Shown here: positions 15,836-21,112 of the stretch, piece by piece
How positions within the stretch are numbered: the stretch's first letter is position 1
Layout of the letters: every line of letters starts with the position of its first letter
Source of the DNA: Bordetella pseudohinzii
GTDB lineage: Bacteria; Pseudomonadota; Gammaproteobacteria; Burkholderiales; Burkholderiaceae_B
Direction: 5' to 3'
Assembly (NCBI RefSeq): GCF_000657795.2
Contig: NZ_JHEP02000003.1
Coordinates: forward strand, 248,001-312,000
DNA length: 64,000 nucleotides
The notes under the pieces: model-generated
Told to the model about the DNA's origin: nothing
Seen by the model: only the letters and a program-made list of their open reading frames with translations
Databases searched by the model: none
Translations under genes and position numbers: made by a program

Positions 15836-16978
15836 TCAGGCCGCCATGGCCCAGCGCCCCTTTCCGGCGCTTTTGGCCAGGTAAAGCGCGCGATCCGCAG
15901 CCTTGAGGATGTCGACCATGTCGTGGCCGTGCTGTGGAATGAGGGCGATGCCCAGGCTGGCGGAAATCCCCACCTCGCCGGCTTCGCCCAGTTCATAGGG
16001 TTTGCTGACGTCGGCGATGAGGCGTTCGCCCAGCGCGCGCGGGTCCGCGTGACGGTCGACGCGCAGCAGCAGCACGAATTCGTCGCCGCCGATGCGGGCG
16101 ATGGCGCTGCCGTCCGGCGCGAGGGCGCACAGGCGCTGCGCGACCTCGCGCAGCAGCCGGTCGCCGCTGGCGTGCCCGCTGGTGTCGTTGACCGCCTTGA
16201 AGCCGTCCAGGTCGAGGTAAAGCAAGGCGTGCTGCTCGCCGCGCTCGCGCGCCAGCGTGGCGGCCTCGGACAGGGCCAGGCTCAAGCCCAGACGGTTGAG
16301 CAGGCCGGTGAGAAAGTCGCGCCGCGCGCGTTCGTCGTTTTCGCGTTCGGCCCGCATGGTGGCCACCAGCATGGCGTTGAGCTTATAGGCCGCCACGGTC
16401 ATGCTGGCGATATAAAGCGGCAGCTGCATGCCGATCACCCACAGCTGCCAGCCGGCGTTGAAGATCGGCACGGCGATGCAGGGCCCCAGGGCCAGGATGA
16501 CCATGGCGGCCGTCAGGCGCGGCGCGCCGAAGTTGCGAAAGCAGATGCCGCCCACCATGGCCGCGGCGGACAGGCAGGTGATGGCGATGGCGATCCAGTC
16601 ACCGCTCAGGGCGCTGATGGTGATGCCATAGCCGACACTGCCGGCCCATCCCAGGGTGAGCAGCAGATAGACATCGGTATGAGTGGCGCCGCCGCGCCGC
16701 GCATGGCGGTGCGCCGAGATCAGGATGCCGCCGCGCGTGATGCAGATGAAGAGCTCCAGCGCGACCCAGCCGTAGAAGATGGGCGTGCCTACGCGCCAGG
16801 CCAGGACGGCGGCGACCATGAGGCTGTTGAGCACGCCGCCGATGAAGATGGATAGGGTGCCGAACAGACTGCCGATCAGGGCGCGCTGAATGTCGAGGGG
16901 GACGTCCTGTCCGGGATGGGCCAGCCACCGCGTCAGACGCCAGGTCGGCATGGAGTAGGTGCTACGGGTCGGGAGCAT
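15836..16978 (-). CDS. Membrane-bound diguanylate cyclase (GGDEF domain)
   Basis: 380 aa from the ATG at 16978; 16951 is an alternative and neither has a clear ribosome site. About six transmembrane helices fill residues 25-215. After a short helix (MRAERENDERARR) comes a GGDEF domain with DFLTGLLNRLGLSLAL, LYLDLDGFKAVNDTSGH and an intact RIGGDEF. The RxxD inhibitory site expected just before GGDEF is absent (the positions read PDGS). There is no EAL domain. It makes cyclic-di-GMP at the membrane; the signal is unknown. It lies upstream of the AtuA operon on the same strand but is separated from it by the inverted repeat and sigma-54 promoter. Confidence 0.9.
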   Translation of the reverse strand: MLPTRSTYSMPTWRLTRWLAHPGQDVPLDIQRALIGSLFGTLSIFIGGVLNSLMVAAVLAWRVGTPIFYGWVALELFICITRGGILISAHRHARRGGATHTDVYLLLTLGWAGSVGYGITISALSGDWIAIAITCLSAAAMVGGICFRNFGAPRLTAAMVILALGPCIAVPIFNAGWQLWVIGMQLPLYIASMTVAAYKLNAMLVATMRAERENDERARRDFLTGLLNRLGLSLALSEAATLARERGEQHALLYLDLDGFKAVNDTSGHASGDRLLREVAQRLCALAPDGSAIARIGGDEFVLLLRVDRHADPRALGERLIADVSKPYELGEAGEVGISASLGIALIPQHGHDMVDILKAADRALYLAKSAGKGRWAMAA

Positions 16979-17074
16979 GCGTGGCGGTCGTGGCGGGCGG
17001 ACTAGAGATATAGCCCGCCCGCATGGCCATCGCAAGAGCCGGAGCGGCATTTTTTTTCTTGCCGCGGCGGCGCG

Positions 17075-17605
17075 TCAGACCTGCCAGCGCAGCACCCATG
17101 CCTGGCGCTGTCCGCGGCGCAGCCGCCCCGTGCCCAGGCGCAGCAGCGTGGTGTAGAGACCCTGGCGGCCTTGCACCGGCCGCGGTCCGGTGGCGCAGAC
17201 GGCGACGCTGCCTTGCGCCAGGGGCAGCACCATGGGGCGGGACTGCATGCGCGGGCGCTGTTCGACGGCGATGGCGTGGCCGCCGTCGAAATCCTGGCCC
17301 GGCGCCGACAGCAGGATGAGCAGCTGCAGGGGAAAGACATCCGGCGCGTGGCTGGCCGACAGCGCCAGGGCCTGTCCGGCCGCCAGCGTCTGCTCTTCCA
17401 GCCGCGGCCGGCGGGCCGTGGGGGCGCCGGCCGCCTCGCCCAGATGGGCCTGCCATTGCCGCGCCAGCGGTTCGAGGCGGTCGCGCAGCGCGGCGGCCCA
17501 GGCCGGCGGCCTGCCTTGGCGCAGGGCCGCGCGCGCCGCCTCGTCCAGCCGTTCGTCCAGCAGGGCCCAGCCTTCGCCGGCCAGGCGGCTTTCCAGCGTC
17601 GGCAT
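17075..17605 (-). CDS. 2OG-Fe(II) oxygenase-like protein lacking the iron ligands
   Basis: 176 aa. The core DVFPLQLLILLSAPGQDFDGG (shortened here: VFPLQ, LLSAPGQDFDGG, VLPLAQGS) closely matches the oxygenase encoded at 19404, so the two are paralogues. In that protein the HQD iron motif sits just before EEVFPL. Here the same positions are Leu82 and Ala84, and the distal His region is also replaced (RQGLYTTLLRLG). The protein is therefore predicted to be catalytically dead as an iron dioxygenase. It is the last gene of the ada cluster, 3 bp after ada. A regulatory or scaffolding role is conceivable. The reading frame is intact, so it is not an obvious pseudogene. Confidence 0.7.
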   Translation of the reverse strand: MPTLESRLAGEGWALLDERLDEAARAALRQGRPPAWAAALRDRLEPLARQWQAHLGEAAGAPTARRPRLEEQTLAAGQALALSASHAPDVFPLQLLILLSAPGQDFDGGHAIAVEQRPRMQSRPMVLPLAQGSVAVCATGPRPVQGRQGLYTTLLRLGTGRLRRGQRQAWVLRWQV

Positions 17606-17608
17606 GGC

Positions 17609-18652
17609 TCAGGCCGCCAGCGCCTGTTCGCGGCGCAGCAATTCGCGCTTGCGGGCCACGCCCCAGCGATAGCCCGACAGCGCGCCGTCGTTGCGCACGA
17701 CGCGGTGGCAGGGGATGGCCACGGCCAGCATGTTGGCGCCGCAGGCCTGGGCCACGGCGCGCACGGCCTTGGGGCTGCCGATGCGGCGGGCGATGTCGCT
17801 GTAGGAGGCGGTTTCGCCGGGCGCGATCTGGGTCAGCGCGCGCCAGACGCGCTCCTGGAAGGCGGTGCCGCGCACATCCAGCGGCAGGTCCACGGGCGCG
17901 CCGGGCGCCTCCACCAGGCCGACCACGGTGGCCATCATGCCCTCATAGGCCGGATCGCCGCCGATCAGCTCGGCCTTGGGGAAGCGGTCTTGCAGGCTCT
18001 GCAGCAGCGGCTCGGGGTCATCGCCCAACAGGATGGCGCAGACCCCGCGATCGCTTTGCGCCACCAGGATGGCGCCCAGCGAGCATTGCCCGATGGCGAA
18101 GTAGAGCCGGGCATTGGCGCCGCCTTCGCGGTACTCGCTGGGCTTCATGCCCAGCATGCCGTCGGCGGCGGCATAGAAGCGGCTGTTGGAGTTGAAGCCG
18201 GCCGCGTAAAGGGCGGTGGTCACGTCTTCGCCGCCGTCGAGCCGCCGGCGCAGGCGGCGGGCCCGGTGGGCCTGGGCATAGGCGCGTGGCGTCAGGCCGG
18301 TGGCGGCCTTGAAGACACGGTGGAAGTGGTAGCTGCTCACGCCGAGTTCGGCCGCAAGCTCGTTCAGCGAGGGCAGGGTGTCGGCCGTCTCGATGCGGCG
18401 GCAGGCCTGGGCGACCCAGCCGGCATGGGCCCGGCTGACGCGGGCCTGGACCTGGCTGGGCCGGTAGCCGGCGGCCTCGGCCTCCTGAGCGGTGGCGAAG
18501 AATTCGACGTTCTCCGGACGCGGCAGGCGGGCCGGATTGCCCGGGTGGTTGTAGACGCCGGTGGTCTTGACGGCATAGACGAAGCGGGCGTGAGGATCGC
18601 GGGCGATCACGGCGGCCCAGCGGGGATCGGTGTCGGTGAGGCGCGTGTTCAT
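17609..18652 (-). CDS. ada: Ada-type protein: AraC-like regulator fused to O6-methylguanine-DNA methyltransferase, N-terminal cysteines lost
   Basis: 347 aa. N-Ada domain (1-75), AraC HTH (about 90-185; LNELAAELGVSSYHFHRVFK) and a C-terminal methyltransferase with the active-site IPCHRV (Cys315) and the helix FQERVWRAL. The C-terminal repair activity looks intact. The four zinc cysteines of canonical N-Ada (E. coli Cys38, 42, 69, 72) are replaced: VYNHPGNPAR gives Asn35 and Asn39, and YRPSQVQAR gives Ser66 and Gln69. Methyl-phosphotriester sensing by the usual Cys switch should be impossible. Encoded with alkB and an oxygenase on the same strand, 99 bp after alkB. Confidence 0.9.
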   Translation of the reverse strand: MNTRLTDTDPRWAAVIARDPHARFVYAVKTTGVYNHPGNPARLPRPENVEFFATAQEAEAAGYRPSQVQARVSRAHAGWVAQACRRIETADTLPSLNELAAELGVSSYHFHRVFKAATGLTPRAYAQAHRARRLRRRLDGGEDVTTALYAAGFNSNSRFYAAADGMLGMKPSEYREGGANARLYFAIGQCSLGAILVAQSDRGVCAILLGDDPEPLLQSLQDRFPKAELIGGDPAYEGMMATVVGLVEAPGAPVDLPLDVRGTAFQERVWRALTQIAPGETASYSDIARRIGSPKAVRAVAQACGANMLAVAIPCHRVVRNDGALSGYRWGVARKRELLRREQALAA

Positions 18653-18751
18653 GGCGGACTCATGAAAAACAAGGTAAGACCACTGTAGACGGGCGCGGGC
18701 CAGGGCGCACTCCGCGTCTTGCGGCCGAATTCCCGCGCCGCCCCGTCCAGG

Positions 18752-19402
18752 CTACTGTACCGCGGGCCCCGCCCGGCGCAGGGTGAGGTTGATGCGCTGG
18801 CGGCCCACCACGGGATGCTCGCCTTCGGCCAGCGGCAGGATGCCGTGAAAGCGCAGCCGGTCCGCGCCGCCCCAGACGGCGACATCGCCGTGCCGCAGCG
18901 GCACGCGGGCGCAGCGGTCCTGGCGGCGCAGTCCGCCAAACAGGAAAACCGCCGGCAGGCCCAGCGAGACCGAGACGATGGGGGCGCCGAAATCCGCTTC
19001 ATTGCGGTCCTGGTGCAAGCTCATGCGCGCGCCGGGCGCATAGTGGTTGATCAGGCAGGCATCGGGCCGGAATCCCGCAAACCCGGCCATGGCGGCGGCT
19101 TCGGCCGCCAGCTCGGCGAATACGGCCGGCAGGGGCGGCCAGGGCAGGCCGCTTTGCGGGTCATGGGATCGATAGCGATAGCCCTGCCGGTCCGTGGTCC
19201 AGCCCAGCTCGCCGCAATTGGTGATGGCCGCCGACATGGTGAAGCCGCCCGGCGTCAGCATATGGCGCGGCGGCGCGCCGGCCTCGATGTCCGCCAGCGC
19301 GGCGAGGAGACGCTCGGCCCGCGCCAGGGCCAGGCCGCGCAGCACGCAGGCCTGGGGCCCCAGCGCGATGCGGTTGTCGTCGGCGAAGAGTTCGGCCTGC
19401 AT
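18752..19402 (-). CDS. alkB: AlkB-type alpha-ketoglutarate-dependent DNA dealkylase
   Basis: 216 aa from the ATG at 19402, one base after the upstream oxygenase stop. Oxidative demethylation of 1-methyladenine and 3-methylcytosine. Signature residues: the NHYAPGARMSLHQDRNE segment (shortened: LHQD holds the Fe ligands His and Asp), the SVSLGLPAVFLFGG core, distal His in RFHGILPL and RINLTLR (2OG-binding Arg). PMTPGG-like HMLTPGGFTMS near residue 50 matches the AlkB substrate-loop region. It forms an alkylation-repair group with ada and two oxygenase relatives. Confidence 0.95.
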   Translation of the reverse strand: MQAELFADDNRIALGPQACVLRGLALARAERLLAALADIEAGAPPRHMLTPGGFTMSAAITNCGELGWTTDRQGYRYRSHDPQSGLPWPPLPAVFAELAAEAAAMAGFAGFRPDACLINHYAPGARMSLHQDRNEADFGAPIVSVSLGLPAVFLFGGLRRQDRCARVPLRHGDVAVWGGADRLRFHGILPLAEGEHPVVGRQRINLTLRRAGPAVQ

Positions 19403-19403
19403 C

Positions 19404-20132
19404 TCAGGAAGCGTCGTGGAAAATAATACCCAGGGTGTGGCGCTGGCCGGCCCGCACGGCGGCCACGCCATGGCGCATGGCGCGCCGGTGCCAGCCGCGC
19501 GGGCCGGCGGCCGGCCGGTGGTGCACGGCAAAGACCAGGGCGTCGCCCTGGGCCAGCGGCAGCACATCGGCCTGGGGCGGATGTCCGGCGCGCTGCTCGG
19601 TCATGACGAATTCCCCGCCCTCGAAATCCACGCCGGGCGTGGACAGCAGCACCACGCATTGCAGCGGGAAGACTTCTTCGCCGTAGAGGTCCTGGTGCAG
19701 GCAGTTGTAGTCGCCGGCGCCATAGCGCAGGATGAGCGGCGTGGGCCGGGCCTGGCCCGCCCGATGGCAACGAGCCAGGTAATCGGCATGTTGCTCGGGA
19801 TAGTCGGCCGGCTGTCCCAGGCGCCGGGCCCAGTCGCGCGCGATGGGCGCCAGGCGCGCATACAGCGCCGCGCGCCACAAGGCCAGGGCCGCCGGCAGCG
19901 GGTAGGCGAAGTACTGGTATTCCCCCTGGCCGAAACCATGGCGCGCCATGACCACGCGGCTGCGGTAGCGGCCGCCGCCGGCGTCATAGGCCCGCGCCAG
20001 CTGGCGGCATTCGCCGGGCCGCAGCAGGGCGGGCAGGATGCCGCGGCCCTCGGCATCCAGGGATTGCGAGAGCGCGGCCCAGTCCTGGGCGTCAAGGCGC
20101 TGGTCGATGCGGCGGGAGAGATCGGCGGTCAC
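19404..20132 (-). CDS. 2OG-Fe(II) oxygenase (prolyl-4-hydroxylase-type fold)
   Basis: 242 aa with the GTG start at 20132; an in-frame ATG at 20189 would add 19 residues of unlikely character. Catalytic residues are present: CLHQDLYGEEVFPL (HxD iron ligands), VVLLSTPGVDFEGGEF, then the distal His of MRHGVAAVRAG and the Arg of GQRHTLGIIFH for 2-oxoglutarate. The substrate is unknown. The tight coupling to alkB (1 bp) and ada points to alkylation stress, possibly repair or protein hydroxylation (inference). Confidence 0.85.
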   Translation of the reverse strand: MTADLSRRIDQRLDAQDWAALSQSLDAEGRGILPALLRPGECRQLARAYDAGGGRYRSRVVMARHGFGQGEYQYFAYPLPAALALWRAALYARLAPIARDWARRLGQPADYPEQHADYLARCHRAGQARPTPLILRYGAGDYNCLHQDLYGEEVFPLQCVVLLSTPGVDFEGGEFVMTEQRAGHPPQADVLPLAQGDALVFAVHHRPAAGPRGWHRRAMRHGVAAVRAGQRHTLGIIFHDAS

Positions 20133-20209
20133 GATGGATGGCGCTTGCGGTGGACAACTCAGTCTAGACGGCGCGCCGGCGGCGCGCATCCCATGTCTTG
20201 CGCCCGAAT

Positions 20210-21112
20210 TCAGCGCCGCAGCGCGGCGCGCAGCCAGGCATGGCAGCGGGCCACGGGCGGGCGCTGGGCCGCCGTGTGGGCCAGCAGGGCGATCGAGCGC
20301 TCGGTGGCGGGCTCGCCCAGGCCCAGCACGGCCAGCGAACCGGGCCGCTGCGGCAAGGTGTACAGGCGCGAAATCAGGCCCACCCGCTGGCCGGCCCGCA
20401 CCAGGCTGTAGAGCGAGTCGGTGTAGTGCAGGGTATGCACTTGGTCCGCGGCCAGGCCGTGCTGGGCCAGCGCGGCCAGGATCATGCTGTGGGTGCTGCC
20501 GCGCGACAGCATGGCCAGCCGCTCGCCCGCCAGGTCGCGCCAGTGCAGGCGCGGCCGTCCGGCCAGTCGGTGTCCGGGCGCCAGCACCGCGACCAGCTCG
20601 TCGCGGGCGATTTCCTGGGCTTGTATCTGCGGCGGCAGCCCGAAGTCCAGACCCAGGCCCAGATCCAGGGCGCCGTTCTGCAATCCGCTGATCAGCTCGT
20701 CGTTCAGGACATCGCGCAGCTGCAGCTCGATGTCCGGATGCGCGGACTGCCAATCGGCCAGCAAGGGCGCGATCAGCGGCATGGTCGAGGGAATGCAGCC
20801 GATGCGCACCACCGCGGCCTCGGCGTGCAGCAGCCGGTGCAGCTCCTGCGCGCCCTCATCGAAGGTATTGAGCATCCATTGCGCCTGGGCGTAGAGCGCG
20901 CGGCCGGCCTGGGTGAGCCGCACATGGTGGGTGCTGCGGTCAAAGAGCGGCGCGCCCAGAACGGCTTCCAGCTCCCGGATGGCCGAGGACAGCGCCGGCT
21001 GGCTCAAGGCCAGGGCCTGGGCGGCCCGGCTGAAGCTGGCGTGCCGGGCCACTTCGACAAAGCCGCGCAGCTGGCGCAGGCTGGGCTGCCGGTGCGGCGC
21101 TTCAGGCGTCAT
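20210..21112 (-). CDS. LysR-family transcriptional regulator
   Basis: 300 aa. N-terminal HTH: LRQLRGFVEVARHASFSRAA, then LSQPALSSAIRELEAVLG. The effector domain (about 95-300) begins with VVRIGCIPSTMPLIAPLL and includes LDLGLGLDFGL. It is divergent from the Bug/M20/phosphoribosyltransferase operon at 21234, with a 121-bp AT-rich spacer carrying a dyad, the standard LTTR arrangement. It probably senses the compound imported or hydrolysed by that operon. Confidence 0.9.
   Translation of the reverse strand: MTPEAPHRQPSLRQLRGFVEVARHASFSRAAQALALSQPALSSAIRELEAVLGAPLFDRSTHHVRLTQAGRALYAQAQWMLNTFDEGAQELHRLLHAEAAVVRIGCIPSTMPLIAPLLADWQSAHPDIELQLRDVLNDELISGLQNGALDLGLGLDFGLPPQIQAQEIARDELVAVLAPGHRLAGRPRLHWRDLAGERLAMLSRGSTHSMILAALAQHGLAADQVHTLHYTDSLYSLVRAGQRVGLISRLYTLPQRPGSLAVLGLGEPATERSIALLAHTAAQRPPVARCHAWLRAALRR

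Follow-up and report, generated by a model that had tools for sequence, protein, structure and literature searches.

Why would a DNA-repair gene cluster keep, next to an intact iron-dependent oxygenase, a paralogue of that enzyme without the residues that hold the iron? This question is raised by four genes on the minus strand of a stretch of Bordetella pseudohinzii DNA (64,000 nucleotides; contig NZ_JHEP02000003.1, positions 248,001 to 312,000), hereafter called the window. The genes occupy positions 17075-20132 in the order Oxy1, AlkB, Ada and Oxy2, and the first and the last of them belong to the PF09859 family. Our preferred answer, to which we give a probability of roughly 0.6, is that Oxy2 would be a retained non-catalytic subunit of a heteromeric alkylation-repair dioxygenase, with Oxy1 as its catalytic subunit. 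Behind this answer stand a single clade of PF09859 proteins without the HxD iron motif, the reciprocal division of motifs between the two partners, persistence across many genera, purifying selection on Oxy2, and the setting in a cluster with Ada boxes.

The features of the two oxygenases are as follows:
17075..17605, minus strand: Oxy2, an iron-ligand-less, truncated PF09859 paralogue of 176 amino acids (profile match, pairwise alignment, AlphaFold2)
17237..17257, minus strand: RPRMQSR hairpin of Oxy2, residues 117-123, not in Oxy1 (alignments, AlphaFold2 model)
17354..17362, minus strand: lost HxD of Oxy2, Leu82-Ser-Ala84 opposite the His/Asp ligands of Oxy1 in the ungapped register (alignment)
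19404..20132, minus strand: Oxy1, a PF09859 oxygenase with HQD...H...R, AGHPPQA replacing the hairpin motif, and a GTG start (profile, alignment, AlphaFold2)

Oxy1 and Oxy2 are the only two PF09859 matches that a profile search finds in their own genome. Oxy1 scores 265.7 bits over the whole profile, and Oxy2 scores 101.3 bits with a match that covers only positions 84-164 of the 172 in the profile (Pfam cut-off 26.2). The two align with 36% identity over 140 columns (BLAST, E 3e-20) and have VFPLQ, LLS.PG.DF.GG and EQR in common; an original prediction, made from the letters of the sequence, had recognised the first two of these motifs together with the HQD and the distal His/Arg of Oxy1. The complete triad and the 2-oxoglutarate (2OG) arginine of Oxy1 are H146, D148, H221 and R231. 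The same prediction held that Leu82 and Ala84 of Oxy2 replace His and Asp and that Oxy2 has no distal His. Both proteins translate as it stated, and in an ungapped count from VFPLQ the replacement is exact (Leu82/Ala84 opposite His146/Asp148), whereas BLAST places Ser83/Ser85 at these positions and MAFFT a gap and Ala84; none of the three registers gives His or Asp there, and an alternative alignment restoring the triad was sought in them and ruled out by all alike. The distal His in RHG of Oxy1 is Leu in LRLG of Oxy2 and is missing from all five close Oxy2 orthologues (MAFFT alignment), and the 2OG-type Arg is retained as R167 opposite R231. Judged by sequence, the HxD...H signature of a catalytic 2OG-Fe(II) dioxygenase is present in Oxy1 and absent from Oxy2. 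H86xxD89 of Oxy2 was considered as a substitute iron motif and rejected, since its spacing is wrong and His86 is absent from one of the five close orthologues (G002).

Oxy2 also carries deletions that the original prediction had not described, about 33 residues of the N-terminal half and about 15 ahead of the iron site. Its AlphaFold2 model (mean predicted local distance difference test, pLDDT, 79.5) retains the strands and core of the jelly roll, confidence being low for residues 59-68 and 80-89, of which the second stretch is the lost iron-site region, and RPRMQSR forms the turn between strands 111-116 and 123-127. Oxy1 is modelled with a mean pLDDT of 95.1, and its structural matches include 2OG oxygenases (E down to 7.8e-10). 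A Foldseek search of the PDB with the Oxy2 model returned nothing at E <= 0.001, and VIA-align gave Z scores of up to 9.2 to prolyl hydroxylases, slightly above the tool's guide value for a common arrangement, and of 8.1 and 8.0 to 7vbr and 7vbq, not above that value.

Reciprocal distribution of hairpin and iron site

PF09859 is present in all 15 searched genomes of the genus and in 94 of 229 of the family. Stretches were read from 59 genomes (57 of the same family and two of other families of the order), which were picked mostly for having two copies, and not every PF09859 copy of every genome was covered; Oxy2 occurs in 48 of them. All 48 Oxy2, found by profile or with the window protein and not with the hairpin as query, retain RPR.Q.R, and all 47 active copies read in Oxy2 genomes lack it. 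Where Oxy2 is absent, nine of 11 active copies retain the hairpin, one as RPRMQSC. In most unpaired PF09859 enzymes, the iron site and a TEQRPRMQSR block occur together. In a class sample of 370 genomes, 16 have a PF09859 match, including the genome of the window, and the 13 with a single readable active copy show RPRxQSR in 12 cases (partial in G411) and VPRAQSK in one; outside this count stand a G329 fragment, and G617, where an Oxy1-type copy and a fragment of the Oxy3 type described below are present and no Oxy2 was found.

The division extends to a larger set of 119 genomes or loci (20 duplicates removed), of which 88 have Oxy2 with a hairpin-less active copy, 20 only the full-motif form, nine Oxy2 alone in the stretch, and two are exceptions (G007 and G133). 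In none of the 119 does Oxy2 stand beside a hairpin-bearing active copy in the stretch read. Among the 59 genomes, four (G008, G205, G207 and G208) have Oxy2 with no full-length active copy in the stretch read. Each of the nine cases of Oxy2 alone has a further PF09859 match elsewhere in its genome, and the five of these copies that were read (four from Cupriavidus, one from a Burkholderiaceae metagenome-assembled genome, MAG) have the iron site. A scan of named genomes adds Oxy2 in Burkholderia, Paraburkholderia, Caballeronia, Cupriavidus, Variovorax, Dyella, Pseudomonas, Sodalis, Serratia and others; some of these records are MAGs and possibly misbinned, and because the scan patterns were taken from the hairpin, every Oxy2 that it found has the motif by construction.

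The 48 proteins without an intact HxD fall on one side of one branch in a tree of 106 (support 100/100). The 106 were extended with the named genomes to 205 rows (199 different), part of whose Oxy2 rows had been retrieved by a hairpin query; once the HxD and hairpin columns were left out, the 78 rows without an intact HxD again lie on one side (Shimodaira-Hasegawa-like approximate likelihood ratio test, 99), and the iron-site state changes once. No protein among the 205 lacks both motifs, a count biased by the named Oxy2 having been found through the hairpin. That 97 of 97 Oxy2 lack an intact HxD is definitional, the set having been defined in this way; the independent evidence is that this set makes up exactly one clade on the tree that excludes those columns. 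Truncated Oxy2 occurs in ten species, all of this genus, and five of them have lost every iron ligand. The window Oxy2 is the reduced end of a wider pattern.

Two further arrangements were seen. A third PF09859 copy, Oxy3, often follows Oxy2 and has an intact iron site with TES[DN]PKKPGR or similar in the place of the hairpin (L144, L148-L153, L163, L172, L184, L192, L199 and other loci). At the G007 locus (L037, 3223-5215), Oxy1 and AlkB are followed by a methyltransferase without the regulatory half of Ada, and no Oxy2 was found.

Selection on Oxy2 and the case for a heteromer

Ratios of nonsynonymous to synonymous substitution rates (dN/dS) were estimated by the Nei-Gojobori method with bootstrap intervals. 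Between the window and G004 the ratio is 0.25 for Oxy2 (0.11-0.44; second bootstrap 0.13-0.54), 0.12 for Oxy1 (0.04-0.25), 0.16 for AlkB and 0.09 for Ada. The window Oxy2 gives 0.42-0.46 when paired with three species farther away, the range over ten pairs of close orthologues is 0.25-0.49 with all upper bounds below 1, and seven other pairs, of full-length Oxy2, give 0.21-0.35. Oxy2 is under purifying but relaxed selection. A check for relaxed selection had been proposed with the original prediction, and its outcome is divided: the ten pairs speak for purifying selection, and in comparison with Oxy1 the constraint is relaxed. The predicted retention for a non-catalytic role is well supported by the old clade, the open frames, dN/dS below 1 and the hairpin in 48 of 48 Oxy2. 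As to the partner, which the prediction had sought among the active oxygenase, AlkB and Ada, the reciprocal motif loss favours the active oxygenase.

This reciprocal loss suggests a heteromer. In the simplest history, a single ancestral PF09859 enzyme would have combined the HxD...H...R active site with the Arg-rich RPRMQSR beta-hairpin and worked as a homodimer, with the hairpin acting in trans. After duplication, the hairpin would have disappeared from Oxy1, which retained the iron and 2-oxoglutarate site, and the iron site from Oxy2, which retained the hairpin; in the window, Oxy2 has shrunk to hairpin and jelly-roll core. The two proteins would be in physical contact, the hairpin may act in trans on DNA or on the active site of the partner, and the putative substrate is alkylated DNA.

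Several findings weigh against such a heteromer. Hairpin-less active copies occur with no detectable Oxy2 in G007, G133 and probably G617, so Oxy1 can persist alone, and the hairpin of the partner in G625 is half preserved (RPHMQPR). Of 21 Oxy2 genomes, at least six also carry a full-motif copy at another place, so that the reciprocal rule holds for the cluster partner and not for the whole genome. In the window, AlkB and Ada lie between Oxy1 and Oxy2, and the two are not always adjacent. Co-loss of the motifs amounts to one independent pair on supported branches and five on all branches, and a sign test for repeated co-loss cannot reach significance because the independent pairs are too few; with so few events, the case rests on persistence and exclusivity and not on repeated origin. 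In selection, the seven species pairs with both genes give Oxy2 a dN/dS 1.6 to 4.7 times as high as that of Oxy1, the intervals of Oxy2 and Oxy1 overlap in the closest pair (0.11-0.44 and 0.04-0.25), one of the full-length pairs has an upper bound above 1, and relaxed selection would also fit slow decay.

Could Oxy2, then, be a relic of the duplication that is slowly decaying and has become functionless in the genus? We regard this as unlikely. The truncation in ten species, the loss of all iron ligands in five, the raised dN/dS and the one species (G007) with no detectable Oxy2 would fit such a relic, but the ratios of the ten pairs, with their upper bounds, do not, nor does the RPR[MLQ]Q[ST]R block, which is kept in all ten truncated copies (RPR[ML]Q[ST]R in nine and RPRQQSR in the tenth) despite an identity to the window copy of only 36 to 90%.

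Ada without zinc cysteines, its boxes and its place beside Oxy2

The remaining features of the cluster are as follows:
17609..18652, minus strand: Ada, with intact O6-methylguanine methyltransferase (PCHR) and AraC helix-turn-helix (Pfam, NCBIfam, alignment)
18446..18550, minus strand: Ada residues 35-69, the zinc/methyl-acceptor site without its cysteines (alignment to E. coli Ada)
18717..18732, minus strand: Ada box GAATTCGGCCGCAAGA, with A box AAT and B box GCAA, 64 bp before the Ada start (pattern match)
18752..19402, minus strand: AlkB, His-x-Asp intact (Pfam, NCBIfam)
20196..20211, minus strand: Ada box GAATTCGGGCGCAAGA, 63 bp before the Oxy1 start (pattern match)

Oxy1 and AlkB are separated by 1 bp, and Ada and Oxy2 by 3 bp. 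AlkB, Ada and the two PF09859 proteins are Pfam or NCBIfam assignments, NCBIfam having no model for the oxygenases; AlkB exceeds the equivalog cut-off of NF011930 (335.1 bits vs 267) and lies under that of TIGR00568 (170.7 bits vs 231.05). On the same strand, a gene for a GGDEF-domain protein (15836-17050) lies just downstream and one for a LysR-type regulator (20210-21112) just upstream, the stop codon of the latter being overlapped by the first bases of the Ada box before Oxy1. No promoter came out of a sigma-70 scan, and a terminator search found one unconvincing candidate.

The original prediction had treated Ada as ordinary, which it is not. The alignment places Asn35, Asn39, Ser66 and Gln69 (or Val68) at Cys38, Cys42, Cys69 and Cys72 of E. 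coli Ada, so that none of the four zinc/methyl-acceptor cysteines is kept, and the O6-methylguanine site PCHR is intact. According to the excerpted text of PMC4437013, E. coli Ada accepts the methyl group on Cys38, and its A- and B-box contacts include Arg45 and F114/H115/R118. The window Ada is like E. coli Ada in its three-part layout, PCHR, Ada boxes, B-box contacts (Tyr, His and Arg at the F114, H115 and R118 positions) and Arg45, whose equivalent is Arg42, but it has none of the four zinc cysteines and no equivalent of Arg71.

How far does this loss reach? We classified 73 Ada (one identical pair) and scored the presence of PF09859 within the locus for named records and in the read stretches or by homologue search for the others. 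Sixteen have all four cysteines, 12 of them with a full-motif single oxygenase, four with no PF09859 seen and none with Oxy2. The other 57 comprise 34 with the Cys38 equivalent only, 15 with no cysteine, six without the domain, one cut by a contig end (G008) and one unclear (L172); by partner, 45 go with Oxy2, three with a single enzyme and nine with none seen. Cysteine loss in Ada and the presence of Oxy2 go together. The four-cysteine label changes three times on the best Ada tree and the no-cysteine label seven times, of which well-supported branches force one and two. The Arg45 equivalent, an A-box contact in E. coli, is retained in the rows that have the N-domain. In the largest class (34 of 73), which keeps the Cys38 equivalent alone, the methyl-acceptor cysteine outlives the zinc site.

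The boxes before Oxy1 and Ada, like the cysteine-less Ada itself, go beyond the original prediction. Both read GAATTCGG[GC]CGCAAGA, 63 bp before Oxy1 and 64 bp before Ada, and the assignment of A and B box follows PMC4437013, as excerpted. No third exact copy of the two-site pattern was found in the genome, the pattern having been written from the two window sites and therefore matching them exactly by construction. With at most one mismatch the window has two matches, as many as in 36 of 100 shuffles and thus not rarer than chance. In 154 loci (1.45 Mb with duplicates, matches counted at any position), AATTN5GCAAG has 119 matches, spread over 82 loci, vs three for the reversed pattern. The case for the window boxes lies in both being exact and equally placed and in the 154-locus comparison, an enrichment which indicates that A and B boxes outlive the zinc site.

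Given the loss of the zinc cysteines, induction therefore probably no longer proceeds via methylphosphotriester repair by Ada; induction via the methylated C-terminal Cys or a second regulator is more likely. Activation through the C-terminal Cys has been shown for Cada2, and a predicted 2OG dioxygenase gene, ccna_00745, is reported in the methylation response of Caulobacter (excerpts of PMC10957082). A PF09859 gene was found by profile search in the Caulobacter control genome. As excerpted there, Cada2 resembles the window Ada in having no zinc-cysteine sensor and in keeping the methyltransferase Cys, but it has RLHD and no A-box domain, whereas the window Ada has a cysteine-less domain and no RLHD, a motif absent from all 74 Ada rows; a Cada2-like assignment was rejected on these two grounds. 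Loss of part of the regulatory region has already been described for Caulobacter Ada orthologues, in which, per the excerpt of PMC1839093, a whole motif is absent, whereas in the window Ada the zinc domain is present with its ligands replaced. A candidate sensor is an AdaA-AlkA fusion elsewhere in the genome, with Ada_Zn_binding, helix-turn-helix and AlkA_N domains and all four cysteines. Against a sensor role for the fusion, its helix-turn-helix reads DRHLRR, and the genome pattern search found no box of this kind near it.

The co-occurrence of cysteine loss with Oxy2 bears on another account, in which Oxy2 would partner Ada and not Oxy1, perhaps by helping it to regulate or by presenting DNA to the methyltransferase. 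We hold this to be quite unlikely, although the 3-bp spacing in the window would suit it, as would the cluster gene ending within 250 bp before the Oxy2 domain: in 49 named loci, duplicates excluded, it is Ada in 24 cases and an active oxygenase in 13, and there is none in 12. Against this account, it is the active oxygenase whose motif loss mirrors that of Oxy2, the Oxy2 genomes include three whose Ada has no N-domain (G012, G013 and G017), and the nine Ada without four cysteines in genomes with no PF09859 protein seen show the loss apart from Oxy2. Ada as a second partner of Oxy2, next to Oxy1, is possible in view of the spacing. A full-length Oxy2 that is still an enzyme, with a halogenase-like His-x-Arg ... 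His metal site, is very improbable and such chemistry is not favoured: 2OG halogenases lack the Asp ligand, the first His is kept in 73 of 97 Oxy2, the distal His and Arg in most rows, and HalA came near the top of the Foldseek list for the window model, not significantly, but the residue at the Asp position varies widely (His/Arg is the commonest pair, in 46 of 97; otherwise His, Ser, Gln, Cys, Gly, Asn, Trp and others), the first His is also gone from several lineages, and the window copy has neither His.

Known pairs and the meaning of a possible split oxygenase

The closest single-copy relative of the proposed heteromer is the PF09859 form with iron site and hairpin in one protein, which has similar surroundings with Ada and often AlkB; here the two elements are divided over two proteins. 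Elsewhere, TlxI and TlxJ (PDB 7VBQ; excerpts of PMC12141560) are likewise two paralogous 2OG oxygenases, one catalytically defective and kept as an auxiliary, and by their example 2OG oxygenases can work as heterodimers. TlxI has lost the 2OG-binding Arg, whereas Oxy2 has lost the iron ligands and kept the Arg; TlxIJ is a fungal meroterpenoid enzyme with a proven complex, whereas Oxy1 and Oxy2, also a paralogous pair with one catalytically defective member, are known from sequence only. TlxJ alone retains some activity, according to the same excerpts. The trypanosome S-adenosylmethionine decarboxylase prozyme (excerpts of PMC5201418) is likewise a catalytically dead paralogue, there needed by the active one; that enzyme is unrelated and its activation is reported, whereas for Oxy2 the evidence is comparative.

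A broader proposal is that of a widespread adaptive-response module of beta- and some gammaproteobacteria, in which PF09859 would form an obligate heteromer with the hairpin in trans and a zinc-sensor-less Ada would be induced otherwise; its chances we put a little short of even. The original description of the PF09859 family is reportedly a computational prediction, and a search of open-access titles and the starts of abstracts, with subscription journals outside its reach, found nothing on PF09859, DUF2086 or cysteine-less Ada. If Oxy1 and Oxy2 do form a heteromer, the PF09859 repair oxygenase would be a split enzyme in many bacteria, and the RPRMQSR hairpin would offer a defined target for the search for its substrate. 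How such bacteria sense methylation becomes a directly testable question.

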